Shown: positions 10,642-23,911 of the stretch, one piece after another
Position numbering within the stretch: position 1 is the stretch's first letter
How the letters are laid out: every line of letters starts with the position of its first letter
Origin: a virus
IMG/VR virus record: IMGVR_UViG_3300025132_000267
Coordinates: 1-25,300 of that record
DNA length: 25,300 nt
Strand: one strand, 5' to 3'
Notes under the pieces: model-generated
Database searches by the model: none
The model's input: the letters and a program-made list of their open reading frames with translations, nothing else
What the model was told of the DNA's origin: nothing
Translations under genes and position numbers: made by a program

Positions 10642-10877
10642 GAGACTACCTTAACAGTTCCACTATCGCTGAACAATGCACCACTTTCAAGACCCGTAGA
10701 AGCTGTAGGTATTTGTGTCAGGGTCAGTGTGGTGCCTCGAAGGGCGCGAGTGCTACGTTCCTCATCTATAAATTGTTGTAAAACAAGGACAAGATCCGTC
10801 AGATACTCTAACGTAACCTCGCCGCTTCCGGGTGGCGTGGGTAGGATAATTGTAGAAACTTCTACCTTTCTTGCCAT
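10638..10877 (-). CDS. Small conserved-type phage protein between nozzle and tape-measure-like gene
   Basis: This gene encodes 79 residues with overlaps at both ends: its start shares bases with the nozzle stop (TAATG at 10877), and its TGA overlaps the start of the next gene. It reads V-E-V-S-T-I-I-L-P-T-P-P-G-S-G-E-V-T, then a helix L-E-Y-L-T-D-L-V-L-V-L-Q-Q-F-I-D-E-E-R, and a Thr-rich end. It has no cysteine, signal peptide or membrane span. Small proteins of this size at this place in marine podovirus genomes are usually uncharacterised and may be virion components or assembly factors. The tight coupling supports translation in proportion to its neighbours. Confidence 0.75.
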   Translation of the reverse strand: MARKVEVSTIILPTPPGSGEVTLEYLTDLVLVLQQFIDEERSTRALRGTTLTLTQIPTASTGLESGALFSDSGTVKVVS

Positions 10878-13015
10878 TATCTTCTCCCGTCTGGTCTGAT
10901 ATCAAAGCGCGGTGAGCCAAGTTGCCACTGCACGCCTAGCTGATCAGACGATATCTTGAGCGTGTAAGCTCTGCCGCGTAACCTGATATGCAACTGATCT
11001 GTGTACTGATCGACAGGAGATGTAGCTGTGCGAGTTACAGTGCCTGAGTCACTTGCACCGAACGTTGTGCCAGGGAATGTCCTAGCTTCCATAGTAAACG
11101 TGGCAGTCACACCTGTCTGTTCAGAACCAGTGAAGTTGATGTCCGGTACGACTCGTCTGACAAAACTAAAGTTCTCGCCATCACCGATGTCCATGACCGC
11201 AGATGTAATAGAAGGTGTCATGGCTGTTGTATCATCATCCACACCGTCCTCGTGCTTGAACAGCTTCGATGCACCCGCCGCGTGTGGATTAGACCGACTG
11301 GTTTTATCTATCCATGCTGTGCGTGACAGAGAACCGAAGTACCAGATCTGTGTCTGATAGTTGTAGATGACATAACGGTCATTCTCAGTTGCACTTGCGG
11401 ATGTATAAAACCACCATATCTCGCCATGGTCTGCGTTAGCCCCGGCTGTAATCTTGTTGAACTGACTGACGTTGATGTCACCAAACACTTTCAACTCTAC
11501 TGTGCAGGGCAGTTTTTCTGTTGTGCCGCGATAGATATAGAAGTTGTTCTTACCCATCCAGTAGACCGTATCGTCAACAGCAACAGCAGCATTGGGACTG
11601 ATGATGGATATGTTGGATGCAACGAGGTTGGCGGCAAAAATTGATTGCCCACCTATGAAAGTCATAGAATAGATAGCCGTATCCGTAAGCACTACCACCT
11701 CGCGACGTGTCTTAACAGCTTGTACAATCGTTGAGCCGACACCCAAGTCAAAGCCACCAGCTGTGTTGATGCCAGAGCCTGATGTAACAGCAAACCACTT
11801 CAGTTGATCTTCTGAATCGCTGAACCTAATCTTCAACGGATTCTGTGTGCCATTGCCCTCAGTCTCGCTACTACTGGCGTTCTCATCATCGCAACCGAAA
11901 GCAATAACATGACGCGGGAACGGAAAGACCATTACTTGTTTTGCTATTGTGGGCACACTGCGAGATGTGCCACCCGTGGTGCTGACCAGTTTGATGGCAC
12001 GAGTGGTAACACCATTTGCTTTTTCCCAACGAAAGATAGAGCTATCACGCGCACACAAAAGAAGATCATCGCCCAGCGTGTCGTGTGACCAAAGCCGTAA
12101 GTCTAGTGCGGTGCCTGTAGGTGCGGCACTACCCCAACCAAAGAAGTCTGTGGCATTTGTGACAGTTACTCCATTGCTATGAGTAGCGGCTGTCGTGCCC
12201 AAGGCACCGCGTGTTGCTCCTGTAATATCATTAGTGCTTTTGCCGCTGTAAGTAATAAGTTCTGATTCAATCAATAATGTCCCAGAACTTGGAAAACTAG
12301 CTGCGCTTGTAAGCGTAATTGTTGTCTCGCTAGTATCCAAATCTTCGTTTACAGTTGTGAACACAGCACCAGATACTTCACCACCCCACAGACCACCGCC
12401 CCAACCTGTGCCATCAACAGCACTATCAAGGCCGGTGTTGATCTGATACTTGCCAACAACAGAACTACCACCATTACCGGAGTCGCTACCGTTGGCTGTA
12501 ACGGTTGTACCGCTTGTGTCTTTGGCAGTTATTTGAAAGCTGTTGGCGTTTACGATGTTCGTAATCTGATACTCTTGATTGAGTACTGCCGCAGTTACAT
12601 TGCCACCAAGAGATGCAGCACCTGAGAAAGTAATGAAGTCATTTTCAAGAGCGTTGTGTGCTACTTCAGTCACCGTAATTGTCGAAGACCCATTTGATGC
12701 AGCAAAGGTTACGTCCCCTGCGGATGTGGTCAGACGCAACGGTGTTACATCATTATACGAGCCACCTTGTTCGAGATAGTATTTCAGGTGTGTGCCAATA
12801 CCCATAAGGTCTGAACTGTCCGTGGTAACAAAGTTTACCAAAGCACGGGCAGTGCCTTCATAAGTTGCACTCGATATCTTTTTCCAGCCACCAATCTTTT
12901 CAGGATAACCAAACCGGAAACGTACCTTATCGCAATCTACCCAGCTACCTTCATTGCTGTATGAGGTAACGTCGGTTGCAACACCGGGCCTGAACTGAAG
13001 TTTCGTAAGCGGCAC
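10877..13015 (-). CDS. Tail nozzle/stabilisation protein, beta-propeller-like
   Basis: This 712-residue protein begins with GTG, directly abutting the upstream TAG (TAGGTG). The N-terminus has F-R-P-G-V (8-12), S-Y-S-N-E-G-S-W and K-V-R-F-R-F-G-Y-P-E-K-I-G-G-W (30-44), a typical opening of marine phage nozzle-like proteins related in role to P22 gp10/T7 gp12. Two inserted beta modules follow. One at about 112-190 (S-T-I-T-V-T-E-V-A-H) resembles the E1_FCCH-type module also found in the 171-residue gene upstream. The other at about 231-288 carries I-T-Y-S-G-K-S and G-A-T-R-G. The C-terminal half has propeller-like strands (V-V-L-T-D-T-A-I-Y, V-Y-W-M-G-K-N-N-F-Y-I-Y-R-G, N-D-R-Y-V-I-Y-N-Y). It probably closes the tail tube and contacts the fibres. 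The exact family is uncertain. Confidence 0.78.
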   Translation of the reverse strand: MPLTKLQFRPGVATDVTSYSNEGSWVDCDKVRFRFGYPEKIGGWKKISSATYEGTARALVNFVTTDSSDLMGIGTHLKYYLEQGGSYNDVTPLRLTTSAGDVTFAASNGSSTITVTEVAHNALENDFITFSGAASLGGNVTAAVLNQEYQITNIVNANSFQITAKDTSGTTVTANGSDSGNGGSSVVGKYQINTGLDSAVDGTGWGGGLWGGEVSGAVFTTVNEDLDTSETTITLTSAASFPSSGTLLIESELITYSGKSTNDITGATRGALGTTAATHSNGVTVTNATDFFGWGSAAPTGTALDLRLWSHDTLGDDLLLCARDSSIFRWEKANGVTTRAIKLVSTTGGTSRSVPTIAKQVMVFPFPRHVIAFGCDDENASSSETEGNGTQNPLKIRFSDSEDQLKWFAVTSGSGINTAGGFDLGVGSTIVQAVKTRREVVVLTDTAIYSMTFIGGQSIFAANLVASNISIISPNAAVAVDDTVYWMGKNNFYIYRGTTEKLPCTVELKVFGDINVSQFNKITAGANADHGEIWWFYTSASATENDRYVIYNYQTQIWYFGSLSRTAWIDKTSRSNPHAAGASKLFKHEDGVDDDTTAMTPSITSAVMDIGDGENFSFVRRVVPDINFTGSEQTGVTATFTMEARTFPGTTFGASDSGTVTRTATSPVDQYTDQLHIRLRGRAYTLKISSDQLGVQWQLGSPRFDIRPDGRR

Positions 13016-14419
13016 CTAGCTCTCCAGTTTGACTTCAAGTTCTTCAACTTTGTTTGTTAGCTCATGCACAGCATTTACCAGCAGAGCTACAACACGATCA
13101 TATTTGATAGCCTTGAAGCCATCTTCTCTGTTGGCGACTACCTCTGGTAGAACTTTTTCTACGTCTTGAGCAATTAGTCCGACATCATGTTTGCGTACAA
13201 ACATACCGTCCTCGCCACCACGCCTCTCCATGTAGTCTTCTGTCCAATCAAACTCTACACCTTGTATCTGTGCCACCTTGTCTAGAGCTTCGTCGATGTA
13301 GCAGATGTTTTCTTTCAAACGTGCATCTGAAGAAAAGAACGCCGTGATGTCATTCGTCGCTCTTATCTCACCTTGTGTTGTTGATGATGCTGTGCCCACA
13401 CCAAGTGCATTGAACTGAACATTTGAGCCTGTTCCTACAGCTTGACCAATGGCTATGGTTGGCGTTATTCCCTCACCGCTAGTCGCGCTTAATGTGATGC
13501 CTGTGCCAGCACTGAGTGCGGCTACATAGTTACCTGTCGTATGCGTCGTCAAATCAACAGAGTTGTTTGCTTGTGCTGTAGTGATTGTAATATTTGCACT
13601 GCCATCAAACGATACAGCACTGGATGTAACATCTCCTGCTAACGTAATCGTTCGGGCATTTGCAAGCGCAGTGGCTGTTGCGGCGTTACCCGTGCAACTA
13701 CCAGACGAGCCACTTGTGTTGCCGGTTACATTACCAGTGACATTACCAGTAACGTTGCCGGTCACATTACCCGTAACGGCACCTGTAAGATTACCAGTGA
13801 CAGAAGTTGTCGTTAGAACACCTGTGCTTGGGTTGTAGCTTAATCCGGTATCGCTTTCCAAACCTTGTGCGCCAGTTGCACCATCAACAAACACAGGAAA
13901 CACGCTTTCGTTTGTGCTGTTGTTGGCGGTAACGTTTATGTTATCAACGGCATCAAGGGTCAGACTACCAAGGGCATTAACAACTGTTGCACTCGATCCT
14001 CCCCCATCAAACTTTGCTACAACTGTTTTGCCGTTTGCCAAGGTCAAGACATTAGCAGCATCGTATGTGCCTTGGATCAAAACAAGTGACTGGCTACCCG
14101 CTAGGCTGTTTTTAATAATCGCAATCTTTTCGACTGCGTTATCAAGCAAGCGAAGATACACCGTGCCGCCTAAATCACTACCACTCGTAACATTGATGTA
14201 CTTGTGACGTAGTGTAGAAGAGGTTCCATCTGCAATCGTCTGATCGTTTGGGCTACCTGTTGAGCCTGTGGCTGAAAGCGTCAGGGTTACAACGCCGTTG
14301 ATTGCTTCGTCGAGCAGTTCAAAGTTTGTATTAGTAGTCGTGCCCCAGGTTCCGGCCTGTTGACCCGTACCGATCAGAGTGATGCCTAGATTATTGCTAT
14401 ATGTCGTTGTCGTGGTCAC
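13016..14419 (-). CDS. Tail fibre with C-terminal S74 intramolecular chaperone
   Basis: This 467-residue protein starts with GTG at 14419, with AGAGGA nearby upstream; the product begins M-T-T-T-T-T-Y. The N-terminal 80 residues (I-G-T-G-Q-Q-A-G-T-W-G, N-T-N-F-E-L-L-D-E-A-I) are a common virion-attachment domain of marine phage fibres. The middle holds a four-unit G-N-V-T repeat (near residues 208-228) and Thr/Ser-rich fibre. The last 105 residues are an S74 chaperone: S-S-D-A-R-L-K-E-N-I (about 361-370) includes the Ser and Lys of the self-cleavage dyad, followed by V-G-L-I-A-Q-D-V-E-K-V-L-P-E-V and a coiled-coil end. In this family the chaperone drives trimer folding and then cuts itself off just before the Ser. 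Its place directly upstream of the nozzle gene suggests it attaches there. Confidence 0.93.
   Translation of the reverse strand: MTTTTTYSNNLGITLIGTGQQAGTWGTTTNTNFELLDEAINGVVTLTLSATGSTGSPNDQTIADGTSSTLRHKYINVTSGSDLGGTVYLRLLDNAVEKIAIIKNSLAGSQSLVLIQGTYDAANVLTLANGKTVVAKFDGGGSSATVVNALGSLTLDAVDNINVTANNSTNESVFPVFVDGATGAQGLESDTGLSYNPSTGVLTTTSVTGNLTGAVTGNVTGNVTGNVTGNVTGNTSGSSGSCTGNAATATALANARTITLAGDVTSSAVSFDGSANITITTAQANNSVDLTTHTTGNYVAALSAGTGITLSATSGEGITPTIAIGQAVGTGSNVQFNALGVGTASSTTQGEIRATNDITAFFSSDARLKENICYIDEALDKVAQIQGVEFDWTEDYMERRGGEDGMFVRKHDVGLIAQDVEKVLPEVVANREDGFKAIKYDRVVALLVNAVHELTNKVEELEVKLES
13721..13801 (-). repeat. Short G-N-V-T coding repeat in the S74 fibre
   Basis: A 12-bp unit encoding G-N-V-T is repeated about four times in tandem, flanked by related units G-N-L-T, G-A-V-T and G-N-T-S. 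The copies differ at synonymous positions, so this is an older or selected repeat. In fibres such runs form spacer shaft between domains and often vary in number between relatives. Confidence 0.8.
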
Positions 14420-14430
14420 TGTCTAATCCT

Positions 14431-14850
14431 CTAACTCGTATCAATATCCGTATAAGACTCAGAGCCTGATGGTGTTATCGTTGTCCAACTGTCTCCAGTA
14501 TGCGTAATATTCGTCCAGCTTTCTGCCGGAGTTCCAGCGTCTAACGGAGCAAACAAAAGTTCTCCGTTAGAAGTTACATCAAAAGACGGGATTAGGGAAC
14601 CTACACCGGACGCAATATATATGGCGGTAGTGGTTTTTGTGAAATTAGCGTCTATAGTTGCGCTGTCTTCAAGAACGGTGTTTGCAGCAGAAGTCTTCGT
14701 AAAATTAAAATCTGTGACGATAGCCGGGGGTATAGCTATCAATGTCGGCGTAGCTGTTTGAGTTGCATTAAAGCTCTGGGTAGACGCTTCGCTAACTATC
14801 GCTCCGTGTGCAGAAAAGCCCCGATCTGAAAATGATAACTCACCGAACAT
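14431..14850 (-). CDS. Thr/Ser-rich structural protein, unknown function
   Basis: This 139-residue protein is rich in Thr, Ser and Ala and has no cysteine. It begins M-F-G-E-L-S-F-S-D-R-G-F-S, with the ATG directly abutting the upstream TAG. Two copies of a short strand motif, D-F-N-F-T-K-T and D-A-N-F-T-K-T, lie near residues 47 and 67. The end has the repeat-like W-T-N-I-T-H-T-G-D-S-W-T-T-I-T-P-S-G, where W-T-x-I-T recurs. This composition suits a beta-rich virion surface or fibre-adaptor protein. It sits between a 93-residue small protein and the S74 fibre with an 11-bp gap to the latter, so it may help attach that fibre. No named family is recognised. Confidence 0.7.
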   Translation of the reverse strand: MFGELSFSDRGFSAHGAIVSEASTQSFNATQTATPTLIAIPPAIVTDFNFTKTSAANTVLEDSATIDANFTKTTTAIYIASGVGSLIPSFDVTSNGELLFAPLDAGTPAESWTNITHTGDSWTTITPSGSESYTDIDTS

Positions 14851-15132
14851 CTAGGCTGGCCCTGTTTGACTATCCATGAATGTTTCGTAGGCAGACTTCA
14901 CGCTATCCGTCCAAACTGCGTTGCACACAGCCTGTACGGTTGCATCTTCACCTGAGATGTCTGTGTCACCCCAAGTGTCACCAGACTTCGTGCGGCAGTA
15001 AAGAACATGCCTGTGATAGTTACGGCTTATTTCTGCTCCGTCATCTTTTACAATGGTTGCCTTGCGAACTTGGACATTTTTGTAAACGCCTTTGACTTCA
15101 CAGTCATATTCAAATTCTTTCGTTAGTGCCAT
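14851..15132 (-). CDS. Small phage protein, unknown function
   Basis: This gene encodes 93 residues with a good AGGAG a few bases before the ATG. It begins M-A-L-T-K-E-F-E-Y-D-C-E-V-K-G-V-Y-K-N-V-Q-V-R-K-A-T-I-V-K-D-D-G, a beta-rich start with one cysteine. It continues through Y-H-R-H-V-L-Y-C to a helical, acidic C-terminus containing W-T-D-S-V-K-S-A-Y-E. There is no signal peptide or membrane span. Proteins with this start recur in marine phage structural regions without known function, in my recollection. It follows the only sizeable untranslated gap of the late block (48 bp), which may mean that its expression is set partly by its own strong ribosome site. Its stop abuts the next ATG. Confidence 0.72.
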   Translation of the reverse strand: MALTKEFEYDCEVKGVYKNVQVRKATIVKDDGAEISRNYHRHVLYCRTKSGDTWGDTDISGEDATVQAVCNAVWTDSVKSAYETFMDSQTGPA

Positions 15133-15149
15133 TTTTATCTCCTATGGTT

Positions 15150-15178
15150 GGACTGTCCGACCCGACTTCCAGACGGGT
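15150..15178 (-). other. Short inverted repeats in the 48-bp gap between fibre and small gene
   Basis: The gap at 15133-15180 is the longest untranslated stretch of the late block. On the - strand, ACCCG and CGGGT (15174-15178 and 15160-15164) can pair around a 9-base loop, directly after the fibre gene's stop. A perfect 9-base odd palindrome, GGACTGTCC, lies at 15150-15158. No U-run follows the stem, so it is not a standard intrinsic terminator. It could be an RNA-processing or operator-like site, or chance. Confidence 0.3.
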
Positions 15179-15180
15179 TA

Positions 15181-16239
15181 TCATGTAAAATAAAATCCAA
15201 TTCCGATAATACGGGTGCCAGCGTTCATTGTGTCGAGAGAGCTTGTTCCAGCTTGAACCAAAATTATTTGGTCTGAATTGTGACCTATATATCCACCTTG
15301 TATTCCATCGGCTGTTGCATGAGCCACATGCAATGCACCAAAACTTCCACCGGGTGTAAATGGTAATCCGGTAATTGCATGTGTGGCTGATGAGCCAGAC
15401 GCTGATGTCGCATCAATAGTTAGAAAAACACCGCGACCAATTTTTGTGTATTTACACGGAGTGGATTGCGTCATGTTATTGCCGCCGTGAACTGGAGTCC
15501 AAGTTCCTTCTTCGTAGTCATCCTGTAAATTGGCGGCGGTTTCAGCATCGTTGCCAGCAAAAGATAATCCCCCTGAGAGTTGCACATTCCCAGAACTATG
15601 AATGAACATGGCAGTATTAGTTATTCCAGAGCCATAGCTGTTCGATGTTCCGAAGGCTAGGTTTGACCCGCCGCCATCAAACATACCCGCAATGCGAACA
15701 TTGGCGGCAGTCTGACTGTCGTCATACGGAGCCTCTACAAGACTGACATAATTACCAGCAGTGTAGTCTGTTTGTGTAACTCGTAGACCTTCACCATCTA
15801 CTGTGCCTGTAAACGTGCCACCAAGTTTGTTTGTTGTTTCTATCTCAATAGGATTTTCTGGTGAAGTAGTTCCTACCCCAACCCGATTGTTAGTACTGTC
15901 AACGTGTAAGGTGGTGCCATCAACAGTAAGGTCGCCACCTACAGATACGTCCTGTGCAAACTCACCGGAGAACAACCCAAACGTGTCAAACGCCAGTATC
16001 TCTAGCGTGTCGTTTGCGGAGGCACCGCTGTCCAGCACGATGCTCGTACCGCTAGTGGCGGTGTAGTCTGTCTTGTCTAGCTTAACGCCGTTGAGAAACA
16101 CATCCGTGTATTCGGAGTCTGTGTATGTCAGGGTGCGCCCAAGACTGTCAGATCCAGTGAAGCTGGTCTGCCCTGCTGTGGCTGTGTAGACAAACCTGCC
16201 TCGAAGACCACTGCCGGGTTCTTTGCCTATGTATGCCAT
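15181..16239 (-). CDS. Tail fibre with EEGTWTP-type C-terminal domain
   Basis: This 352-residue protein is modular. Residues 1-92 (M-A-Y-I-G-K-E-P-G-S-G-L-R-G and V-F-L-N-G-V-K-L) are a widespread marine phage fibre attachment domain. About 95-135 is a short beta-prism-like stretch with D-L-T-V-D-G-T-T-L and N-R-V-G-V-G-T-T-S-P, as in many trimeric fibres. The C-terminal third starts with D-Y-E-E-G-T-W-T-P-V (about 234-243) and has Y-T-K-I-G-R-G-V-F and I-T-G-L-P-F-T-P. It is a beta-sandwich-like tip domain found at the end of many phage fibres and probably binds the host surface. The start overlaps the 60-residue gene's stop (TAATG at 16239). The fibre call is firm; the receptor is unknown. 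Confidence 0.88.
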   Translation of the reverse strand: MAYIGKEPGSGLRGRFVYTATAGQTSFTGSDSLGRTLTYTDSEYTDVFLNGVKLDKTDYTATSGTSIVLDSGASANDTLEILAFDTFGLFSGEFAQDVSVGGDLTVDGTTLHVDSTNNRVGVGTTSPENPIEIETTNKLGGTFTGTVDGEGLRVTQTDYTAGNYVSLVEAPYDDSQTAANVRIAGMFDGGGSNLAFGTSNSYGSGITNTAMFIHSSGNVQLSGGLSFAGNDAETAANLQDDYEEGTWTPVHGGNNMTQSTPCKYTKIGRGVFLTIDATSASGSSATHAITGLPFTPGGSFGALHVAHATADGIQGGYIGHNSDQIILVQAGTSSLDTMNAGTRIIGIGFYFT

Positions 16240-16421
16240 TAATCTGCGTCCTCGATTGTTAGTGTGCCAGCTTCTACTTGGCGTAAGATTTCTGCGTAGT
16301 GGCGGTTGGCTGGGTCAAGTGGTACAAACATAGTTGTTCCATCAACAACTGCCTGCACAATGCTATTTTCTCCATTGTCGGCAATATATTTTGCAGATGT
16401 AAATGTAATTTTTTTTTCCAC
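16239..16421 (-). CDS. Small fibre-linked protein with GTG start
   Basis: This gene encodes 60 residues starting at GTG 16421, 2 bp after the preceding stop. The start is followed by a run of nine A at 16409-16417 that encodes E-K-K and part of the next codon. The protein reads I-T-F-T-S-A-K-Y-I, V-V-D-G-T-T-M-F-V-P-L-D-P-A-N-R-H-Y and ends V-E-A-G-T-L-T-I-E-D-A-D. Small proteins with V-D-G-x-x-x-x-V-P-x-D-P-x-N and an acidic E-[ED]-A-D end sit next to tail fibre genes in many marine phages. I suspect a fibre assembly factor or adaptor, but no role has been established to my knowledge. It is coupled to the downstream fibre by TAATG, which suggests it is made together with it. Confidence 0.77.
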   Translation of the reverse strand: MEKKITFTSAKYIADNGENSIVQAVVDGTTMFVPLDPANRHYAEILRQVEAGTLTIEDAD

Positions 16422-16423
16422 AA

Positions 16424-17395
16424 TTATAACTCCGCATCTGCCGCTGGTGATATATTGCCAGTATTAGTGGTCATTCCAGTAACTGTAACAAAATTTGTTC
16501 TTGTTCTATTAACAGAACCCCCTGTTGGCACAGCAGATAAAGTGACAGTGGGATTTGCTCTCATTGTGGTGGGAAAAGGGTAGTGTGCTTCTGGAAAATC
16601 TCCATAATGAAAGCGACCTGACCCAGCAAAGTAATACCTCTGGCACAACTGCAACTCTTCAGCAAAACTTCGATGCTCAAACTCAGTGGCTACTGAGCCA
16701 ACTTCTAGTTGCATCCCAGTTATAAACAAAGTGTTGTCTGTACTACTGAAAAAGTTAGAGCCACCTACGTTTCTATTTGCACTACTACTCGCTACCCAAG
16801 ATGTTTGCAAAGTTCCACTATTATATGTAGACCCCGATGCTAACCAAAAGGCAACATACAAACTTAGAGCGTTATCATCATCAAATGCACCTGTAGTATC
16901 TGCTCCAAAGTCAATTTCGATGCGTGACCAATCTGTTGTTGTTGTAAATGTTCTGCTAACTGCTCTACTGTTGTCATTGTCAAAAAGTTCTGCAACCATA
17001 GTACGGGCAGAGTTTGCCTTCACATAGAAACTAAACGTAAAGTTTTTTGCGCTAGACGTTCCTTTAGAAAATCTTTGTAAATCTTGACCCTCAATACGAG
17101 TTTGGAACCAAGCAAAATCTCCTGCGTCTAAACTAGATTGTGCTGTTGTGCAATCAAACTTCAAAGAGTTAGCAAAACCATCAGGGCTATCGCTATCTTG
17201 CGACATGGTTAATCTTCCATCCATGCCAGCAAGACCTAAATTCATTCTATCAGTTACAAAAATACCTGATGATGCACCAATACCTGTAACTGAGGTCGAG
17301 CGTTGAGCCACGTTCATTGAACCGTTGGTCACAACATTCTTCCGACCATCAGGTGCGCTTGCGGATTGTGCTAGTTGTCTTGCTTTGCTTGCCAT
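16424..17395 (-). CDS. Tail fibre/receptor-binding protein with carbohydrate-binding-like domain
   Basis: This 323-residue protein starts with a short Ala/Ser-rich region and V-V-T-N-G-S-M-N-V-A-Q-R-S (21-33). It then has a jelly-roll-like domain with Q-T-R-I-E-G-Q-D-L (98-106), F-T-F-S-F-Y-V-K-A-N (119-128), R-T-F-T-T-T-T-D-W and I-T-G-M-Q-L-E-V-G (about 225-233). The run H-R-S-F-A-E-E-L-Q-L-C-Q-R-Y-Y (about 241-255) follows, and a variable tail ends the protein. The same order of motifs is common in phage tip proteins and recalls carbohydrate-binding modules. It lacks a long fibre shaft, so it may be a tip or side protein attached to another fibre. Its start is 1 bp after the C1q-type fibre gene's stop, and the small GTG gene follows. 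Sugar binding is inferred. Confidence 0.83.
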   Translation of the reverse strand: MASKARQLAQSASAPDGRKNVVTNGSMNVAQRSTSVTGIGASSGIFVTDRMNLGLAGMDGRLTMSQDSDSPDGFANSLKFDCTTAQSSLDAGDFAWFQTRIEGQDLQRFSKGTSSAKNFTFSFYVKANSARTMVAELFDNDNSRAVSRTFTTTTDWSRIEIDFGADTTGAFDDDNALSLYVAFWLASGSTYNSGTLQTSWVASSSANRNVGGSNFFSSTDNTLFITGMQLEVGSVATEFEHRSFAEELQLCQRYYFAGSGRFHYGDFPEAHYPFPTTMRANPTVTLSAVPTGGSVNRTRTNFVTVTGMTTNTGNISPAADAEL

Positions 17396-17396
17396 T

Positions 17397-18230
17397 CTAA
17401 CTTGCCCCTAAAAGAACGCCGCCAAAATTACATCTTGTCCTATCAAGACTAAAGCTGGTGTTATTGTTGTTAATCGCCTGTATTTTAATGACATCACTTG
17501 CGGCACAGTCATCAATACCAATCATAACATTTTGGTCGTAGCTATCTCCGTAGCCGATAACTCTTGCAATGCTTGAGCTAGTAGTTTCGTTGACAATAAA
17601 AGCCTCAACACCTGTAGCTGCATCTGTCGTCGTTACACTTGCGAAAAACAAATAGATACCCGCTACTGGGCATGTGAATTTACCCGTTGTCGTGTTGTAA
17701 TCAGAGCCGTTATTCACAAAAGCTGAACTTAGAACAACGTCAGCCAAAGCCGCCGACCCCGAAAAGGCCATAAGACCTGAACCAGTTGCTTGAAATGCTG
17801 GTAAATTAGGAATACCAAGAAGCCCCGCAGAAGTAACATTAAACAAAGTGCTTCCTGAACTATCCCCCACCATAAAGGCATTTGCAGAACTAGCTCCTAT
17901 AAAACCTCTTGTTGTTCCATTGTCGGAAAACTCTTGTTTTAGTGAATTACTATTAGTGCTGTTTACTTCAAAAGGAACGCCACTGCCTGCTACATGCAAA
18001 GCAGTATCAGGAGAAATACCCACACCAACGCGGCCAGAACTATCAACTCTGACTCTTTCACCTCCAGCCGTTTCGAGGGTAATAGTATCGGTATCAGCAA
18101 AGCGGATGGCGGTGTTAGTATCTCCTGAGTGAACGATTTTGTCAGCGATTGTCAGGTCGCCATCAACCGTAAGTGATTGCGTTTCGCTGACATCGACTAC
18201 ATTGGTTGGCTTCTTACCAGTATAACCCAT
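17397..18230 (-). CDS. Tail fibre with C1q/TNF-like C-terminal head
   Basis: This 277-residue protein begins M-G-Y-T-G-K-K-P-T-N-V-V-D-V, a short attachment tag. A beta region follows with L-T-V-D-G-D-L-T-I, G-R-V-G-V-G-I-S-P-D-T-A-L-H-V (about 66-80) and more repeats to about 140. The last 130 residues resemble the C1q fold: A-F-x-x-x-x at the start, N-N-G-S-D-Y-N-T-T-T-G-K-F-T-C-P-V-A-G-I (about 172-191), Y-L-F-F-A-S-V, and the closing F-G-G-V-L-L-G. C1q-type domains form compact trimers and bind many ligands, so this is a good receptor-binding head. Three cysteines lie in the domain. The start overlaps the upstream stop (TGATG), and the next fibre begins 1 bp after its end. Confidence 0.85.
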   Translation of the reverse strand: MGYTGKKPTNVVDVSETQSLTVDGDLTIADKIVHSGDTNTAIRFADTDTITLETAGGERVRVDSSGRVGVGISPDTALHVAGSGVPFEVNSTNSNSLKQEFSDNGTTRGFIGASSANAFMVGDSSGSTLFNVTSAGLLGIPNLPAFQATGSGLMAFSGSAALADVVLSSAFVNNGSDYNTTTGKFTCPVAGIYLFFASVTTTDAATGVEAFIVNETTSSSIARVIGYGDSYDQNVMIGIDDCAASDVIKIQAINNNNTSFSLDRTRCNFGGVLLGAS

Positions 18231-18580
18231 CAGGTAATCTCCATAATACTGAGTGTTGCGTCAATCTTTGCCGCCGTGTCTGCGTCAATCTTCAAAACAT
18301 CTGAGTCCTGCAATACAACTTTACCGCCAGACAAAACCTCTAACGACGAGCCTACAGGTATCGGCACATTCTCCAGCAACTTCACTGTCGCGTTTGTTTC
18401 TGTGTCATTGGTATCTGAAACCAACTGCACATCTACAGTGTGTTGCGCCGTTCCTACGTTGCAAAGTATCAGTCCAAGGACAACAGAAGTTGTAGAGCCG
18501 GGGCAGGTATACAATGTCTCCAAAGTCCCAGCCGAAGCAGGCATTGCCGCATGTGTTTTTACCTTGAATGTATTAGCCAT
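18230..18580 (-). CDS. Small beta-rich tail protein, unknown function
   Basis: This gene encodes 116 residues reading M-A-N-T-F-K-V-K-T-H-A-A-M, then L-Y-T-C-P-G-S-T-T-S-V-V-L-G-L-I-L-C-N-V-G, V-D-V-Q-L-V-S-D and V-L-S-G-G-K-V-V-L-Q-D-S-D-V-L-K-I. The alternating pattern predicts a beta-sandwich, with two cysteines in adjacent strands and no membrane span. Proteins of this layout sit between fibre genes in many marine phages and are probably small virion proteins, perhaps linking fibres to the tail. It starts 3 bp after the 721-residue fibre and is coupled to the C1q-type fibre by TGATG. No enzyme motif is seen. Confidence 0.73.
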   Translation of the reverse strand: MANTFKVKTHAAMPASAGTLETLYTCPGSTTSVVLGLILCNVGTAQHTVDVQLVSDTNDTETNATVKLLENVPIPVGSSLEVLSGGKVVLQDSDVLKIDADTAAKIDATLSIMEIT

Positions 18581-18583
18581 GTT

Positions 18584-20749
18584 TTATCCTAACGCGATTG
18601 CCAATGCCGTTGCATCGTCCGTGGTTGCCACCGTGCCTGTTGCACTGGGTAGTGTCAGCGTTACATCGGCAGTAGAAGCTGGGCCGATAAGCGTTGCCTT
18701 GTTCGTGCCGTTATCGCTGTCTTCAAAGAACTCTACAAACCCTGCTGATGTGGCTCCGTTCTTTACCGACATGCCTGCATTGAACACATCCTTTGCCGTT
18801 GATGTTGACACGCCTGTCTGAGTTGTAGTGCCGCTAATCTCTACATTACCGTTGATGTCTATCGTCGTGGCGTTCAGTTCTAGTTCTGTATCAGATACCA
18901 AATCAAGAACACCGTCTGCGCTTTGATGAATATATGTACCTGAGTCACCAAACTGTAGTTGGCGTGAGCTATTCAGCAACAAAGCAGTATCAGCAACATG
19001 CGTAAGCGTTACGTCCTTATCTGCACCAAAACCTAGAACCGCCGCATCGCTGTCCAATGTAATGTCATCACCTACAAGCAGGTCGCCATCTATGTCTACA
19101 TCACTAGAAAAGTCACCTGTTGCCGCGTCCAATTCCCCAGTAACTGTAAAGTTTCTAATTCCAGTGTAATCTTTGTTGGAGTCTAGTATGACTGCCTTTG
19201 ACGCAATCGCTGTGCCAGCAGCTGTTGAGCCTAAATCAAGGAAGTTTATCTCACCAACAACTACGGTTGCACCATCTAAGATGTTTAGCTCTGCTGGTGT
19301 GGATGTGATTGCTGTGTTACTTGCGGCGGCAAGCACAGGTATCGTGCCCGACTGGTTCGGTAAGTTGATTGTTCTGTCTGCCGTTGGATCTACGATTGTT
19401 AGCGTGGTTTCATGGGCATCCGCAGTAGCACCTTCAAAGATAATCGCGTTTTGCGCGTTCATCGTAACGGTGTCTACCGTTGTGGTTGTCCCTGATACCG
19501 TGAGCTTTGGAACCAACAACTCACCCGTGCTTGGGTTATATCGCAGTGCGCCCGTGTCATCTAACAGCGCGTTTGATTCATCATGAAACACGACGGGGAA
19601 GTTTGTATTTGCTGTGCTGTCGCTGACAGTAACTGTCGTGGCAACCGCCGCAGTACCTGAGTATCCAGACGATGTAATCGTACCTAGCGATGAGCCTGCA
19701 TCGGCAAAGGTAATTGTACCGCCATCTGCGTCCAATGTAATCCCACCGGATGAGTCAAGCGTAACCGTTGTGCCTGCAAGCTCTGCTGTGCCATCTGCGG
19801 TAATCTGTATGTTTGCAGCCGCCGCTGCGTCATCTGTTGTGACAATATCTAGTGTGCCGTTTGTTCCCACCGTAAACGTAGCAGTATCACTGGTAGAGCC
19901 GGTCATCGTAATCACTTTACCGTCTACCGCTACATCATCCACTGTCAGCGCAGTTAGCGTGCCGACAGATGTAAGGTTAGGCATTGCCGTGATTTCATCA
20001 TCAAAGTATGCGGCTAAGTCTGTAACAGCCACCTGCTTCATTGTACCTGCATCGTTGAACACAACACGGTCTGCGTCAGCCACTGTGACAGATGAAGCTG
20101 AAGTATTCCCGTCAACAATATTTAGCTCTGCTACCGTAGAGGTAATACCGTCGAGTACGTTCAACTCGTCCGTAGTGACGGTTGCTCCGTCAAGTATCTC
20201 TAGTTCTGCTTCACTGATACCAGCACTGCCGATTGTGACAGTCCCGGCAAACGTTGCATTGGCTCCGTCAAATGTAATTGCAGTAGTAGAACCTGACTTC
20301 AAGACTAGATTGCCGGAAGAATTAGTCAGCGCAGCATATTGTGTGCCAGCATCTTTCAGCAAAACATCCGCGCCATCTGCATCAAGAATGATGTCAGCAG
20401 GTGCATCAATCGTCAGATCACCCGACCCTGGCACCAGCAATGCTTTTTCAGCAGGCAATGTGCAGAACACAGTCTTCGTGCCAGACGAAAAGTTTACTGC
20501 GCTATCGCTGTTCGAGCTTTCTAGTATGGTTGTGCGAGACAGCGTATCAGGCGAGGCATCCGTTACGGTGCCGATGCCTACCTCAAACTCGTTGGCACTT
20601 TCGTGAACAATCGCATAGTAGGTAGTGTTGCTGTTACCTATGCCAGCTACAAAGGTTTGAAACCCAGTTAGCGCACCAGCCAACGAGAGAGTGCCAGTGC
20701 CTGTAGTCGTGCTGGTTTCTTTTACTCTATCGTTAACTGCAAAAGCCAT
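18584..20749 (-). CDS. Long ladder-repeat tail fibre
   Basis: This 721-residue protein begins with an attachment domain (residues 1-105; M-A-F-A-V-N-D-R-V-K-E-T-S, Y-Y-A-I-V-H-E-S-A-N-E-F-E-V-G and S-R-T-T-I-L-E-S-S). A long shaft of short strands follows (D-L-T-I-D-A-P-A-D-I-I-L-D-A-D-G-A-D-V-L, G-T-V-T-I-G-S-A-G-I). The ladder motif A-E-L-x-I-L-D-G recurs near residues 178-216 (E-L-E-I-L-D-G, E-L-N-V-L-D-G, E-L-N-I-V-D-G) and once more near 495. The C-terminus is another beta run (V-T-L-T-L-P-S-A-T-G-T-V-A-T) with no chaperone or recognised head. The absence of a distinct tip suggests it may serve as a shaft for the small or tip proteins encoded next. It is the longest fibre here, and its start shares bases with the previous stop (TAATG). 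Confidence 0.88.
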   Translation of the reverse strand: MAFAVNDRVKETSTTTGTGTLSLAGALTGFQTFVAGIGNSNTTYYAIVHESANEFEVGIGTVTDASPDTLSRTTILESSNSDSAVNFSSGTKTVFCTLPAEKALLVPGSGDLTIDAPADIILDADGADVLLKDAGTQYAALTNSSGNLVLKSGSTTAITFDGANATFAGTVTIGSAGISEAELEILDGATVTTDELNVLDGITSTVAELNIVDGNTSASSVTVADADRVVFNDAGTMKQVAVTDLAAYFDDEITAMPNLTSVGTLTALTVDDVAVDGKVITMTGSTSDTATFTVGTNGTLDIVTTDDAAAAANIQITADGTAELAGTTVTLDSSGGITLDADGGTITFADAGSSLGTITSSGYSGTAAVATTVTVSDSTANTNFPVVFHDESNALLDDTGALRYNPSTGELLVPKLTVSGTTTTVDTVTMNAQNAIIFEGATADAHETTLTIVDPTADRTINLPNQSGTIPVLAAASNTAITSTPAELNILDGATVVVGEINFLDLGSTAAGTAIASKAVILDSNKDYTGIRNFTVTGELDAATGDFSSDVDIDGDLLVGDDITLDSDAAVLGFGADKDVTLTHVADTALLLNSSRQLQFGDSGTYIHQSADGVLDLVSDTELELNATTIDINGNVEISGTTTQTGVSTSTAKDVFNAGMSVKNGATSAGFVEFFEDSDNGTNKATLIGPASTADVTLTLPSATGTVATTDDATALAIALG

Positions 20750-21177
20750 TATTTCAACTCAATGGTTAGATTACTCGCGTTGATTCGGAAGATATCACCA
20801 GACGCAACAGACCTTGAAGAGTCTAAAGCACCTACAAAAAGTATGTTGCCGCTAGACGATGCGTCTACCAAAAACACATGTGTGATTGTCTGAGTGCTAC
20901 CGCCCGATGCTGGAAACTCTATGTTGGCAGCGTTTACAACGGTCTGTGCATCTGTGCTTGTAGAAGCAATCGTCCAGTTAGATGCTGTAACTTGCTGTCG
21001 CGCATAATTAGTAAAACTAGCTTCTGTCAGACTACCGGCTTCTGCATCAGACACAGCAGTTGCTAGGCCGACATAGATACTGTCGCCGGGTGATGAGAAA
21101 CTTGCGGCGTTGTTTTTGAAGATAAAGCTGAGTAGCTTGCCCTCAAGATATGTGGTTGCAGCATTAGAGGTAGCCAT
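20749..21177 (-). CDS. Gp80-like small tail protein
   Basis: This gene encodes 142 residues, with an AAAGGA a few bases before the ATG. The protein reads A-T-T-Y-L-E-G-K-L-L-S-F-I-F, S-I-Y-V-G-L-A-T-A, F-T-N-Y-A-R-Q-Q-V, I-E-F-P-A-S-G, I-T-H-V-F-L-V-D-A-S-S-S-G-N-I-L-F-V-G-A-L and an end I-N-A-S-N-L-T-I-E-L. This order of helix, [VL]-Y-V-[GA]-L, Y-A-R, F-P and G-N-[IL]-L-[FY]-x-G-x-L is that of the widespread Gp80-like family of small tail proteins. Their function is not well established; they may sit at the tail-fibre interface. It lies between the adaptor gene and the first large fibre, matching that idea. Confidence 0.82.
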   Translation of the reverse strand: MATSNAATTYLEGKLLSFIFKNNAASFSSPGDSIYVGLATAVSDAEAGSLTEASFTNYARQQVTASNWTIASTSTDAQTVVNAANIEFPASGGSTQTITHVFLVDASSSGNILFVGALDSSRSVASGDIFRINASNLTIELK

Positions 21178-21179
21178 CG

Positions 21180-21827
21180 TTACGTCCTTTCTCTACTTGG
21201 AAGACCCTTACGATAAGCATCTGTGTTTTCTCGTGCTTCACCCAGATCTTTCAGTCGCAACAGTTCCTCTGTAAATCTGTCACTGTAAACTTTTAACATA
21301 TCAGGGTCGCTTTTCATATAAGCGTAGGCTTCAAACAAGCTGCCGTACAACAAAGCAAAAGACGCATTTGTACTAAGCCATGTCGTGCCGCTATCTGCAC
21401 CGGCTGTGAGACTTGCAGGTCTGAAATAATAGTGTAGCTCTACCGTGTAATTAGAGTTTGGTGTCGGCGCAACGATGAGGTTTGTTTCATCAAACCGTGC
21501 ATAATATCGTGGCACACCTGTAGTAGATGCAGAGGGTGTGAAGGTCTGTAAAAAGTTTACGTCTTTTTGTTCTAAAAACCGTTCAGAACCCGATGTTGTG
21601 ATACGCAATGAAAATGACGCTAAAAAATCAGTGGGTACTGTCAAGAACCGATCACTTGAGGTAAACGCGCTGGTAACGTTTTTACGGAATATCTCAAAGT
21701 CCACGGACTTGAAGAGCCTGTCTTCAGCCGCCTTGATGAAGTCATTCAGGTGCGTAACAAAAGATGTCTCTGTGTTTTCGGTATAATCCTGAATCGCTGT
21801 TTTTAATTCGCTGTAAGTAAAACTCAT
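21180..21827 (-). CDS. Head-tail adaptor protein (SU10-adaptor-like)
   Basis: This 215-residue protein starts with helices (Y-S-E-L-K-T-A-I-Q-D-Y-T-E-N, F-I-K-A-A-E-D-R-L-F-K), then has a beta part: F-L-T-V-P-T-D-F-L-A-S-F-S-L-R, G-V-P-R-Y-Y-A-R-F-D and L-I-V-A-P-T-P-N-S-N-Y-T-V-E-L-H-Y-Y-F-R-P. It ends with a helical region (A-L-L-Y-G-S-L-F-E-A-Y-A-Y-M-K). This layout matches phage adaptor proteins of the SU10 type that bind below the portal and connect it to the nozzle. The start is 2 bp after the 171-residue gene's stop, and the gene sits with the 222-residue connector, as expected for neck components. Family naming is from memory of the motif order. Confidence 0.85.
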   Translation of the reverse strand: MSFTYSELKTAIQDYTENTETSFVTHLNDFIKAAEDRLFKSVDFEIFRKNVTSAFTSSDRFLTVPTDFLASFSLRITTSGSERFLEQKDVNFLQTFTPSASTTGVPRYYARFDETNLIVAPTPNSNYTVELHYYFRPASLTAGADSGTTWLSTNASFALLYGSLFEAYAYMKSDPDMLKVYSDRFTEELLRLKDLGEARENTDAYRKGLPSRERT

Positions 21828-22345: not shown

Positions 22346-23013
22346 TAGCGCACCCGTAGATAATCAATACTTGGAGTAAGTTTGAGTGCTACACGATCCT
22401 CGTCTTCATCTGCGGCACGTTGGAACTCTTCTTCGTAGATTGATTTCAACACCTGTATTCTTTGAGGTGCGCGTTTAACAGACAAGTAGTATGCCAGTCC
22501 TGCTGCCATGCAGGGCAGAAACCGGAAGGGTGCATCTACATCATTCACCAAAGCATCAGCATCTTGTATGCGTTGAACAAAGTAATAACGCAAAACATCT
22601 GTGCTGTTTTCAGGCGTGGGCCACAGGTTTATCTCTGGTGTAATCTGTCTGTTGAAATAGAAACTAGAGGGCTTGCCTGTTGTCGCCTTGTTTGGTTGGT
22701 TCTGATACTCGCCCCGGCTGATGCGTTGCACCTGAAAATCAGTGTTGTCACGACGAACAACCACTTCAAGTATATCAGTAATCTCGCTAGATAGAGTGTA
22801 GGTAGATGTACCTGATGTGAGAGCTTGTGTGCCCAACTGCACTGTCCACAGATTTACGCCTCTATTTGCCCAGTCTGCAAACATGATGTTAAGTGAGCGT
22901 CTCGCTGTCTCAGCATCATACCCAGTCCTGACTTCCAACCCACAACGTTCGTAGGCTTCCTCGATGACTTCAGCTACATCAAGAGTAAAGTTCCTTGAAC
23001 TGGACGTTGCCAT
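22345..23013 (-). CDS. Head-tail connector / tail accessory protein (P22 gp4-like)
   Basis: This 222-residue protein starts at ATG 23013, which shares bases with the upstream stop (TGATG); an in-frame GTG just before is unlikely. The N-terminal helices read D-V-A-E-V-I-E-E-A-Y-E-R-C-G-L and T-A-R-R-S-L-N-I-M-F-A-D-W-A-N-R (about 12-53). They are followed by N-L-W-T-V (54-58) and a beta domain with L-W-P-T-P-E-N-S, R-Y-Y-F-V and F-R-F-L-P-C-M-A-A-G-L-A-Y-Y-L-S. This matches marine podovirus connector proteins that are placed with the P22 gp4/T7 gp11 class on the basis of role and position. It would lie between portal and nozzle. A fourth connector gene, the adaptor, lies two genes downstream. 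Confidence 0.83.
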   Translation of the reverse strand: MATSSSRNFTLDVAEVIEEAYERCGLEVRTGYDAETARRSLNIMFADWANRGVNLWTVQLGTQALTSGTSTYTLSSEITDILEVVVRRDNTDFQVQRISRGEYQNQPNKATTGKPSSFYFNRQITPEINLWPTPENSTDVLRYYFVQRIQDADALVNDVDAPFRFLPCMAAGLAYYLSVKRAPQRIQVLKSIYEEEFQRAADEDEDRVALKLTPSIDYLRVR

Positions 23014-23690
23014 CACTCTTCCTCATTATAAAGGTTATCAAACACCCTGTTTACATCTAACGTATAATCTAAATCACTTTTAGAATAATGTATATGAGCA
23101 GATGGCTTGAAGTCTGGGGCACCAGTCCCCGTCTCAAACCAAGCTGGATGAGTTACTCTAACACGGTTGTTGGGCAACGCCACAATATTTCCTGTCCACT
23201 CACCAGCATCAAGCAAATGCAACACATGGCTCTGCTTATGTTGTGCGGGATCATCCGCGATTTCGTTTTCTGAATAATCTACAGTGAACAAATATTTGGC
23301 AGGAAACATCTCGCCATCTATCTTTGCAAACCAGGGACAAGGTGTGGCTCTATCTAAGACATACACAGCGTGGTTATGTGATGAGCAATCCCATGGTTGT
23401 GCATCATGAACAGCCATAGGGACAGGCCATTCTTCTAAAGGCTCATCTGCCACCAGTGCAGTGATAGGCATACGCGCCCACATCGCACCACCGTGTACAG
23501 TGTCCTCTTCCTCGCCTTCTGCTTCGATGCCCGTGAATATAACCTGAAAGCTCAACGACCTGCATGGCATAGTCGTCACAGCAATAGCCATGGCGTGTAA
23601 AAACTCGCCATGGTATTTCTCATGGTTGTGTGTGTATTCCCGGCGCACCCAGCACTTGAAGTGAGGGATGTTGCTTTGAAGATAAGGCAT
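23013..23690 (-). CDS. His-rich protein of unknown function near the neck genes
   Basis: This 225-residue protein is coupled at both ends (TAATG at 23690, TGATG at 23013). It is unusually rich in histidine (15 by my count), tryptophan and cysteine. Notable clusters are Y-T-H-N-H-E-K-Y-H (19-27), S-S-H-N-H-A (103-108), H-K-Q-S-H-V-L-H (151-158) and A-H-I-H-Y (198-202). The opening M-P-Y-L-Q-S-N-I-P-H-F-K-C-W-V-R-R-E-Y reads like a protein recurring in marine phage structural regions, without function known to me. The rest is acidic and mixed in secondary structure, with no membrane span. Several His clusters could bind a metal, but no classical metalloenzyme motif was recognised. It could be structural or an enzyme; the context favours a virion or assembly role. 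Confidence 0.75.
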   Translation of the reverse strand: MPYLQSNIPHFKCWVRREYTHNHEKYHGEFLHAMAIAVTTMPCRSLSFQVIFTGIEAEGEEEDTVHGGAMWARMPITALVADEPLEEWPVPMAVHDAQPWDCSSHNHAVYVLDRATPCPWFAKIDGEMFPAKYLFTVDYSENEIADDPAQHKQSHVLHLLDAGEWTGNIVALPNNRVRVTHPAWFETGTGAPDFKPSAHIHYSKSDLDYTLDVNRVFDNLYNEEE

Positions 23691-23911
23691 TACGCTTTAG
23701 TGAGCTTGTAACCTTTTTTCTTCGCTGCTGCTCTTATTTGAGCCAGTGTCATTGTGGGTTTTTTAGTGGCACCGCCACGCTTCATGCCCTTGGACTTCAT
23801 CATACCGCCACGCTTCATGCCCTTGGACTTCATACCAACGGCACCGCCACGGCGATAGCCTTTAGACTTCATCATACCGCCCTTTTTCATGCCCTTCCGT
23901 TTCTTCATCAT
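23690..23911 (-). CDS. Small basic repeat protein (K-G-M-K-R-G-G type)
   Basis: This gene encodes 73 residues in two parts. Residues 1-50 are an almost pure Lys/Met/Gly/Arg repeat with units such as M-M-K-S-K-G-M-K-R-G-G, and no acidic residue. Residues 52-73 are a small ordinary segment (T-M-T-L-A-Q-I-R-A-A-A-K-K-K-G-Y-K). Start choice is between ATG 23911 (ATGA overlap) and 23908 (TGATG). The strong charge suggests binding to DNA or to acidic capsid surfaces. Lys-rich repeat proteins of this sort occur in marine phage genomes near head and neck genes. The function is unknown; it may be packaged with DNA or help assembly. It is coupled by TAATG to the His-rich gene. Confidence 0.74.
   Translation of the reverse strand: MMKKRKGMKKGGMMKSKGYRRGGAVGMKSKGMKRGGMMKSKGMKRGGATKKPTMTLAQIRAAAKKKGYKLTKA
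23771..23833 (-). repeat. Tandem 30-bp identical direct repeat inside the basic repeat gene
   Basis: Two identical 30-bp copies lie at 23771-23800 and 23804-23833, 33 bp apart from start to start. A diverged third copy begins at 23843 and a further remnant begins near 23876. On the - strand each unit encodes M-K-S-K-G-M-K-R-G-G. The identity at the DNA level, including synonymous positions, points to recent duplication or gene conversion. It is a coding repeat, not a CRISPR, as there are no unique spacers. Confidence 0.9.

Follow-up and report, generated by a model that had tools for sequence, protein, structure and literature searches.

Fibre-end classes and their neighbouring small genes in the receptor-binding cassette of a marine podovirus-like phage

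Introduction

It is established that a phage can carry many receptor-binding proteins whose N-termini are conserved and whose ends are swapped; one named in PMC11414711 has 14 of them. HMO-2011-type phages and the variation of their tail fibres have also been described (PMC6918029, in the portion at hand). Fibre chaperones, as presented in the sections available of three papers, are encoded directly downstream of the fibre and combine beta 'tentacles' with a helical trimerising part, and are S74-like (PMC9608196, PMC10579305, PMC7289586). Here we analyzed the receptor-binding region of a 25,300-nucleotide virus contig (IMG/VR record IMGVR_UViG_3300025132_000267, positions 1 to 25,300; hereafter the window), which as a whole is that of a podovirus-like marine phage. 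Our main subjects are two small genes in it, s93 and s60 (93 and 60 amino acids), each of which lies directly behind a fibre gene.

A preliminary description of the window had listed five fibre-type open reading frames (ORFs) separated by small ones of 60-139 amino acids. We confirmed their lengths and places, all on the minus strand; the four small ORFs have 116, 60, 93 and 139 amino acids. Several distinct fibre-type proteins with different ends do occur in this one phage, as Pfam matches and comparison with sister phages indicate. The observation was thus right and its interpretation, a branched apparatus or a shared shaft with small adaptors, half right. What is new is that the small gene following a fibre can be predicted from the class of the fibre's end, with an RNA hairpin at one kind of junction.

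Results

Pairing of s93 and s60 with fibre ends

In the window, s93 (14851..15132, minus strand; PHROG 6228) follows a 352-amino-acid fibre with an EEGTWTP-type end (15181..16239, minus strand; hereafter the EEG fibre). The gene s60 (16239..16421, minus strand; PHROG 5784) follows a 323-amino-acid carbohydrate-binding-like fibre (16424..17395, minus strand; hereafter the CBM fibre), whose variable C-terminal part ends in DAEL and which matched PHROG 4492, tail fiber, with E 6e-52 (alignment A12). Both small proteins correspond to PHROG entries of unknown function; neither had a passing Pfam or NCBIfam match, nor fell into a described chaperone family.

Profiles were built for s93, s60, the EEG end and the CBM protein, and viral contigs were scanned with them. 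The upstream neighbour of s93 was an EEG end in 76 of the 77 s93 genes with an upstream ORF (three more had none); in the lone exception it was a 45-amino-acid fragment at a contig edge. For s60, the upstream neighbour was a CBM/DAEL-type protein in 87 of 87 genes (five more had no upstream ORF). As controls, we took other small ORFs of these loci: 2 of 222 and 6 of 209 lay behind an EEG end, and 0 of 188 behind a CBM protein.

The same pattern was seen in loci that had not been fetched by the partner gene. There, an EEG end was followed by s93 in 91 of 123 cases and a CBM end by s60 in 39 of 40; for other ends the figures were 1 of 145 and 0 of 228, respectively. For these counts ends were de-duplicated by their last 60 residues only and related phages were counted as independent. 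The single CBM miss had behind it a 62-amino-acid ORF ending in DAGDLTIEDAN, which is s60-like. S74 ends were followed by s93 in 1 of 44 cases, and C1q ends by s93 or s60 in 0 of 61.

Among cultured phages, the s93 profile matched 67 records. In all 12 that were checked (HTVC168P, P-GSP1, SynMITS9220M01, P-SCSP1d, Jormungand, S-SBP1, P-TIM68, P-RSP2, Kolga, HTVC119P, RB11-B and HTVC309P), the gene was behind an EEG end, the match being split across two frames in HTVC119P. The same held for 3 of 3 genome contigs. For s60, six cultured records matched, and in both that were opened, Melnitz-2 and HMO-2011, it follows a CBM protein ending in AEL; the Melnitz-2 homologue is annotated as a tail assembly chaperone. 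Because the records span Autographiviridae, Kyanoviridae and one phage named as a siphovirus, the pairing is not confined to one lineage. The comparisons thus showed, at the level of sequence, an association between the class of a fibre end and the small gene that follows: s93 for EEGTWTP ends and s60 for CBM/DAEL ends, whatever the anchor at the other end of the fibre.

Conservation, predicted structure and a chaperone reading

We propose, with a probability of roughly 0.68, that s93 and s60 are intermolecular assembly chaperones, each specific to a class of tip, within a cassette of exchangeable tips. The proposal draws on the pairing, on a structure model and on analogy with known fibre chaperones. 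Each protein would trimerise and fold its own class of tip and then be released, acting in trans as the S74 domain acts in cis, and a tip would move between phages along with its own helper.

The small proteins were more conserved than their partners. Mean identity was 52% for s93 and 36% for the matching tips, and 54% for s60 and 29% for the matching ends. In 85% of pairs, the s93 proteins resembled each other more than the tips did; where two s93 proteins were >80% identical, 75% of the matching tip pairs were <40% identical. Because s93 stays conserved while the tips diverge, it looks like a chaperone rather than an adhesin. For example, s93 is 91% identical between the window and a sister phage (L005), in which the neighbouring tip has diverged. 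In a second sister phage (L085), the slot of the EEG fibre carries an S74 end and s93 is absent.

The s93 proteins could instead stay in the virion, together with s60, as tip caps or accessory adhesins of the Mu Tfa kind and join in binding. Both fates have been described, in the parts of the two papers available: Mu Tfa stays, while T4 gp38 and Pam3 gp25 leave (PMC9608196, PMC7289586). Association with a fibre end suits either fate. We consider the tip-cap explanation rather unlikely, since the ends they follow vary more than s93 and s60 do, the reverse of what is expected of a protein that gives specificity.

The structure model of s93 (from an alignment of 84 rows, two L392 rows of the original 86 having been dropped) had a predicted local distance difference test (pLDDT) score of 95 and consists of a beta sheet followed by two C-terminal helices. 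This plan of strands and two helices is the one described for fibre chaperones (PMC9608196, PMC10579305), in line with the chaperone reading. Moreover, known families occupy the same position behind other ends: the chaperone family PF16778 (Phage_tail_APC) lies behind C1q ends (also as gp38 and gp30 of HMO-2011), XkdW behind one end and DUF7936 behind S74 ends.

It might also be that the pairing is purely genetic, a tip and a small gene forming one recombining cassette whose products never meet. The region does recombine heavily, and hypervariable host-recognition islands are reported for marine phages in the accessible text of PMC3909814. The pairing, however, is found across genera, families and three tail types and persists as both partners diverge, although joint transfer alone should often break. 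Together with the known chaperone families in the same position, this makes a purely genetic pairing improbable in our view.

Several results weigh against the chaperone reading. A fold search with the s93 model gave no clear match (best E 0.14, best Z 3.7). No correlation between s93 divergence and tip divergence was seen (Spearman -0.07). Another gene lies behind 32 of the 123 EEG ends, so s93 is either non-obligatory or able to serve several tips from one copy; in one locus (L090), a single s93 accompanies three EEG ends. One S74 end, mentioned above, is followed by s93. Joint transfer of the cassette without contact between the proteins could maintain the pairing.

Unnamed small families also recur after other ends. 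Two of them follow C1q ends (beginning MAxITVxLTDTQ and MANHTKTITLTDxQQK) and one follows S74 ends (MDEITAEEIAQHY..); they were seen in L113, L137, L143 and other loci, and in L029, L213 and L227. These are possible additional end-specific partners.

A hairpin at the junction before s93

Between the stop codon of the EEG fibre gene and s93, the window carries a hairpin with a UGGA loop (15161..15177, minus strand). We collected 96 distinct gaps between an EEG end and s93, of 30-90 bases. In 55 of them YGGA occurred within the first 45 bases, and a stem score of at least 5 around it was found in 36 of these 55. With the right arms permuted 500 times, the mean share was 10.6% and the maximum 25%. 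In 16 aligned hairpins, all seven base pairs vary on both sides, with a covariation of 1.08 against 0.30 after shuffling; the 16 had been chosen for at least four pairs from 30 found by script, of which four in another register were left out and ten with a five-base loop were aligned apart.

In 3.25 Mb of loci there were 37 intergenic YGGA hairpins with a stem of at least 6, of which 28 lie directly before an annotated s93. Of the nine others, four precede s93 genes that ORF calling had misplaced or missed, and one precedes an s93-like fragment. With six other loop motifs, no hairpin was found before s93 in the same loci.

Individual copies differ. The hairpin of the window contains a U.U mismatch; it is present in the minimum-free-energy fold, yet with z 0.26 is no more stable than shuffled sequences. 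Five other copies had z of -1.2 to -2.6. Rfam gave no match in the window between 13000 and 21200. A hairpin model (R1), run on 97 sources, gave three matches, one of which (L324) was a training sequence. In eight cyanophage records, the loop GGAG is often where the ribosome site is expected, and many junctions carry both a YGGA loop and a ribosome-site GGA. No hairpin was found at five pelagiphage junctions.

Elements of the CsrA type present GGA in a hairpin loop near the start codon. The hairpin between tip and s93, with its exposed YGGA loop, would probably set the output of s93, and our guess is that it is a translational operator. A broader proposal would be that an EEGTWTP head, the YGGA hairpin and s93 form a portable cartridge that crosses podovirus-, myovirus- and siphovirus-type marine phages onto unrelated anchors, with the operator, perhaps bound by s93, keeping the output of the helper in step with the tip. 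CBM/DAEL with s60, C1q with APC and the ladder peptide (see below) with s116 would follow the same logic. We regard this broader proposal as tentative.

Exchange of fibre ends between relatives

The window was compared with the two sister phages (L085 and L005), whose flanking genes are ~90-99% identical to those of the window. The Gp80-like gene, s116, s139, the S74 fibre and the nozzle gene are 88-98% identical overall (S74 fibre, 90%). In contrast, the EEG protein is 92-100% identical per 25-amino-acid block over residues 1-100 and mostly 12-44% identical beyond. The C1q-type fibre (277 amino acids, N-terminus MGYTGKKP; 17397..18230, minus strand) is 100% identical to its L085 counterpart over residues 1-25 and 68-100% identical to that of L005 over residues 1-75; past these conserved N-terminal blocks, identity is at most 50%. 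The CBM protein is 56-60% identical to its sisters overall, with the minimum near the C-terminus. In the ladder fibre of L085, residues ~475-650 are replaced and both ends retained.

The comparison with relatives that the preliminary description had called for thus revealed swapped fibres: the EEG and C1q ends are replaced in L085 and L005, some of them by S74. Apart from its own S74 fibre, L085 has S74 matches in two slots, C1q and EEG, and L005 has one in the C1q slot. A single, putatively self-cleaving chaperone, as had been noted, is therefore correct within the window, which has one S74 match, and does not hold as a rule. That match, in the 467-amino-acid S74 fibre (13016..14419, minus strand; alignment A3), passes the Pfam cut-off (E 7e-16, 58.7 bits against 22), as does the C1q match of the C1q-type fibre (E 6e-10, 39.8 bits against 23.7). 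The CBM_4_9 match of the CBM fibre, at 25.4 bits, is slightly below its cut-off of 25.9, and neither the EEG fibre nor the ladder fibre had a passing Pfam match.

Ends of the EEG class occur on many different N-termini. Conversely, a set of 138 distinct proteins that start with M..Y[ILTVQ]G comprised 50 with an EEG end, 16 with C1q, 10 with S74, 4 with CBM and 58 without a recognised end. As judged from gene order and alignments, fibre ends are interchangeable between related phages. What lies between the neck genes and the nozzle gene is a modular cassette for receptor binding, in which fixed frame genes (the Gp80-like fibre I gene, ladder, s116, s139 and S74 fibre) enclose slots, and the slot proteins combine conserved N-terminal anchors with exchangeable ends.

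Could the ends be alternative tips that are switched on one shaft by inversion or by a retroelement? The C1q and EEG proteins of the window, and only these, have a common N-terminal start (M-x-Y-x-G-K-x-P), and exactly two starts of this kind were found in 18 of 26 arrays, in which some loci are repeated. Every gene is, however, intact and separate, and no long inverted or direct repeat was found in 12900-21300, where the longest inverted pairs are 23 and 19 nucleotides (78-84% identical). Switching of this kind is therefore highly improbable.

More distant relatives have longer rows of fibre-type genes. A fibre-like family of 120-165 amino acids ending in GDLA is present in L134, L116, L123, L138 and L412 (HMO-2011) with up to nine members per phage (nine in L134).

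Anchors, heads and branching

The EEG fibre was modelled by AlphaFold as a monomer. The alignments for structure prediction had one row per cluster; that for EEG had 94 rows, 24 with the anchor and 70 with the end only, drawn at random from the remaining non-redundant ends. An anchor (residues 9-87; window 15979-16215, minus strand) and a receptor-binding head (residues 242-352; 15184-15516, minus strand) were predicted with confidence. The shaft between them had low confidence, as expected of a monomer prediction.

The predicted anchor resembles a T7/TSP4-like fold. It matched the branching domain of CBA120 TSP4 (domain residues 183-252; Z 8.8, root-mean-square deviation 2.2 Å over 69 residues), the podophage tail-docking domain of HRP29 (Z 8.2, 2.1 Å, 68 residues) and T7 gp17 (Z 6.8, 2.7 Å, 66 residues), Z values that are middling for domains so small. 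The predicted head matched the C-terminal domain of the Dettilon tailspike (Z 11.1, 2.5 Å, 111 residues) and the receptor-binding protein of the lactococcal phage TP901-1 (Z 7.7, 3.3 Å, 99 residues). TSP2 and TSP4 domains join four tailspikes into a branched complex (PMC11414711, in the part available). Because the EEG anchor resembles both TSP4 and tail-docking domains, it fits direct docking and branching alike.

The anchors were also compared with each other. By hhalign, the EEG anchor had no profile-profile similarity to the ladder anchor (probability 0.8) or to the N-terminal domain of the S74 fibre (S74N; probability 0.5), which has a conserved NNLGIxLIGTGxQAGTWG motif. No related pair was found among the anchors, ends and small proteins, the ends being de-duplicated by their last 60 residues only; the top pair was s116/S74N, with probability 28. 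PDB profile searches gave only weak matches: for the S74 fibre the best was phage L Dec, at E 0.002, and for the EEG set the best E was 0.02. The earlier suggestion of alternative tips for one shared shaft is thus unsupported, as the main anchors have no detectable relationship. Separate docking sites are favoured for the same reason, and most likely the fibres would dock at different sites of one virion simultaneously.

The small proteins had alternatively been taken as adaptors through which the fibres are joined in a branched complex. The likeness of the EEG anchor model to the TSP4 branching domain is in line with this, and both s116, tied to the ladder peptide, and s139, tied to the S74N fibre, could be adaptors. 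But s93 and s60 follow the class of end and not an anchor or a fixed position, and they also occur beside single fibres in unrelated phages. A branched complex built through all the small proteins is therefore quite unlikely; an adaptor role is possible for s116 and s139 and does not suit s93 and s60.

Ladder, s116 and s139

The ladder fibre (721 amino acids; 18584..20749, minus strand; alignment A2) has a conserved N-terminal domain of ~105 amino acids, a middle of variable length and a conserved C-terminal peptide, ATALAIALG (variants include FAIALG and AMAIAL ends). Its end is thus a short peptide without a recognised domain. The middle ranges from nearly nothing (proteins of 126 amino acids in all, L105 and L109 being among the cases) to >700 amino acids, and the peptide is common to relatives even at the shortest length.

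The gene directly 3' of peptide-ended ladder proteins is s116 (18230..18580, minus strand). It was the next gene after 50 of 50 peptide-ended ladders and after 1 of 12 without the peptide; conversely, the peptide was present in 50 of 51 cases with s116 and in 0 of 11 without. The gene s139 (14431..14850, minus strand; alignment A7) encodes a protein with FTQT-type repeats, and the next gene was an S74N fibre in 19 of 19 cases. Because of these ties to the ladder peptide and the S74N fibre, s116 and s139 have a stronger claim than s93 and s60 to be structural adaptors. Nothing useful came from PDB profile searches with the ladder, s139 and s116.

Gene order and relatives of the window

In the order of transcription, the genes are the neck adaptor, Gp80-like fibre I, ladder, s116, C1q fibre, CBM fibre and s60, then the EEG fibre, s93, s139, S74 fibre and nozzle genes. 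The neck adaptor-like protein (215 amino acids; 21180..21827, minus strand) matched the phage SU10 adaptor (PDB 7z47) with E 2.8e-5 (profile A5). A sixth fibre-type gene, for the Gp80-like fibre I protein (142 amino acids; 20749..21177, minus strand), lies directly upstream of the ladder (Pfam PF23140, E 4e-30; PDB 8jou chain a, E 6e-11). The cassette is closed by a nozzle-like protein (712 amino acids; 10877..13015, minus strand; PHROG 3287, virion structural, E 8e-58), whose relatives carry the annotation 'stabilization protein'.

By this nozzle-like protein, relatives include the cultured Pelagibacter phages HTVC023P and HTVC027P, Roseobacter phages CRP-901/902 and Phage DSL-LC04. No near DNA relative of the window was found among 50,697 phage records. 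Relatives repeat the order gp80-ladder-s116-[variable]-s139-S74 fibre, which is thus not a chance arrangement, and the stretch from gp80 or s116 to an S74N-type gene is present in 26 loci, some of which are the same contig twice (for example, L003/L083 and L004/L085).

Two further genes lie among the structural genes of the window. One (23690-23911, minus strand) encodes a small, very basic Lys/Arg/Gly/Met repeat protein (KGMKRGGMMKS..), and the other (23013-23690, minus strand) a 225-amino-acid protein matching PHROG 3704, which is labelled ferredoxin. A PDB profile search with p223 gave no match.

Discussion

The pairing turns 'hypothetical' marine phage genes into a testable rule, in which the kind of end predicts the adjoining small gene. 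If the chaperone reading is true, s93 (PHROG 6228) and s60 would gain a function in abundant pelagiphages and cyanophages, and metagenomic fibre ends could be recognised and classed by their partner gene. It would also explain how tips are exchanged between phages without folding failure, and the hairpin would be a new RNA element. Neither the pairing rule nor the hairpin turned up in the literature on fibre chaperones, metaviromic islands, HMO-2011 and GGA hairpins, nor did any paper with the motif EEGTWTP, in a search that was not exhaustive.

Podophage GP4 and the Lessievirus BcepMigl share a Gp80 homologue with the window. The GP4 virion reportedly has three fibre types and a 15-fold fibre-tail adaptor. 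In BcepMigl, as in the window, Gp80 is followed by several fibre genes and then a larger virion protein, and gp60-gp62 share their N-terminus (MALKLSNN..) but end differently, one of them having an S74 match. However, BcepMigl gp54-gp64 had no match to the ladder, s116, s93, s60 or nozzle profiles, only gp80 and the S74 chaperone matching, and PDB profile searches with two BcepMigl proteins gave no match. The window has many more exchangeable ends than BcepMigl or GP4.

HMO-2011, a cultured SAR116 phage, has a row of small fibre genes with a C1q end, an EEG-type anchor, s116, CBM with s60, and PF16778 chaperones. It differs in that the gene after the array has no similarity to the nozzle gene of the window, and no EEGTWTP end or s93 was found among the genes checked. 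The marine metaviromic islands contain hypervariable carbohydrate-binding, C1q, tail fibre, XkdW and tail fibre assembly genes; in the portion of PMC3909814 available, the description has neither a pairing rule of end to partner nor an RNA element.

For the small genes themselves, the nearest parallels are V22 gp27, A5 gp9, Pam3 gp25, Mu Tfa and T4 gp38, each encoded directly behind a fibre, as s93 and s60 are. Several described downstream chaperones combine a beta part and a helical part, as does the s93 model. At 93 and 60 amino acids, s93 and s60 are much shorter than those of V22 and A5 (~195-240 amino acids), and no sequence match to DUF4376 or Tfa was seen. The Ackermannviridae phage CBA120, with TSP1-4, likewise has several receptor-binding proteins in which the N-terminal part is conserved and the C-terminal part swapped; the window differs from it in its podovirus-type neck and nozzle context, its short fibres and its partner genes.

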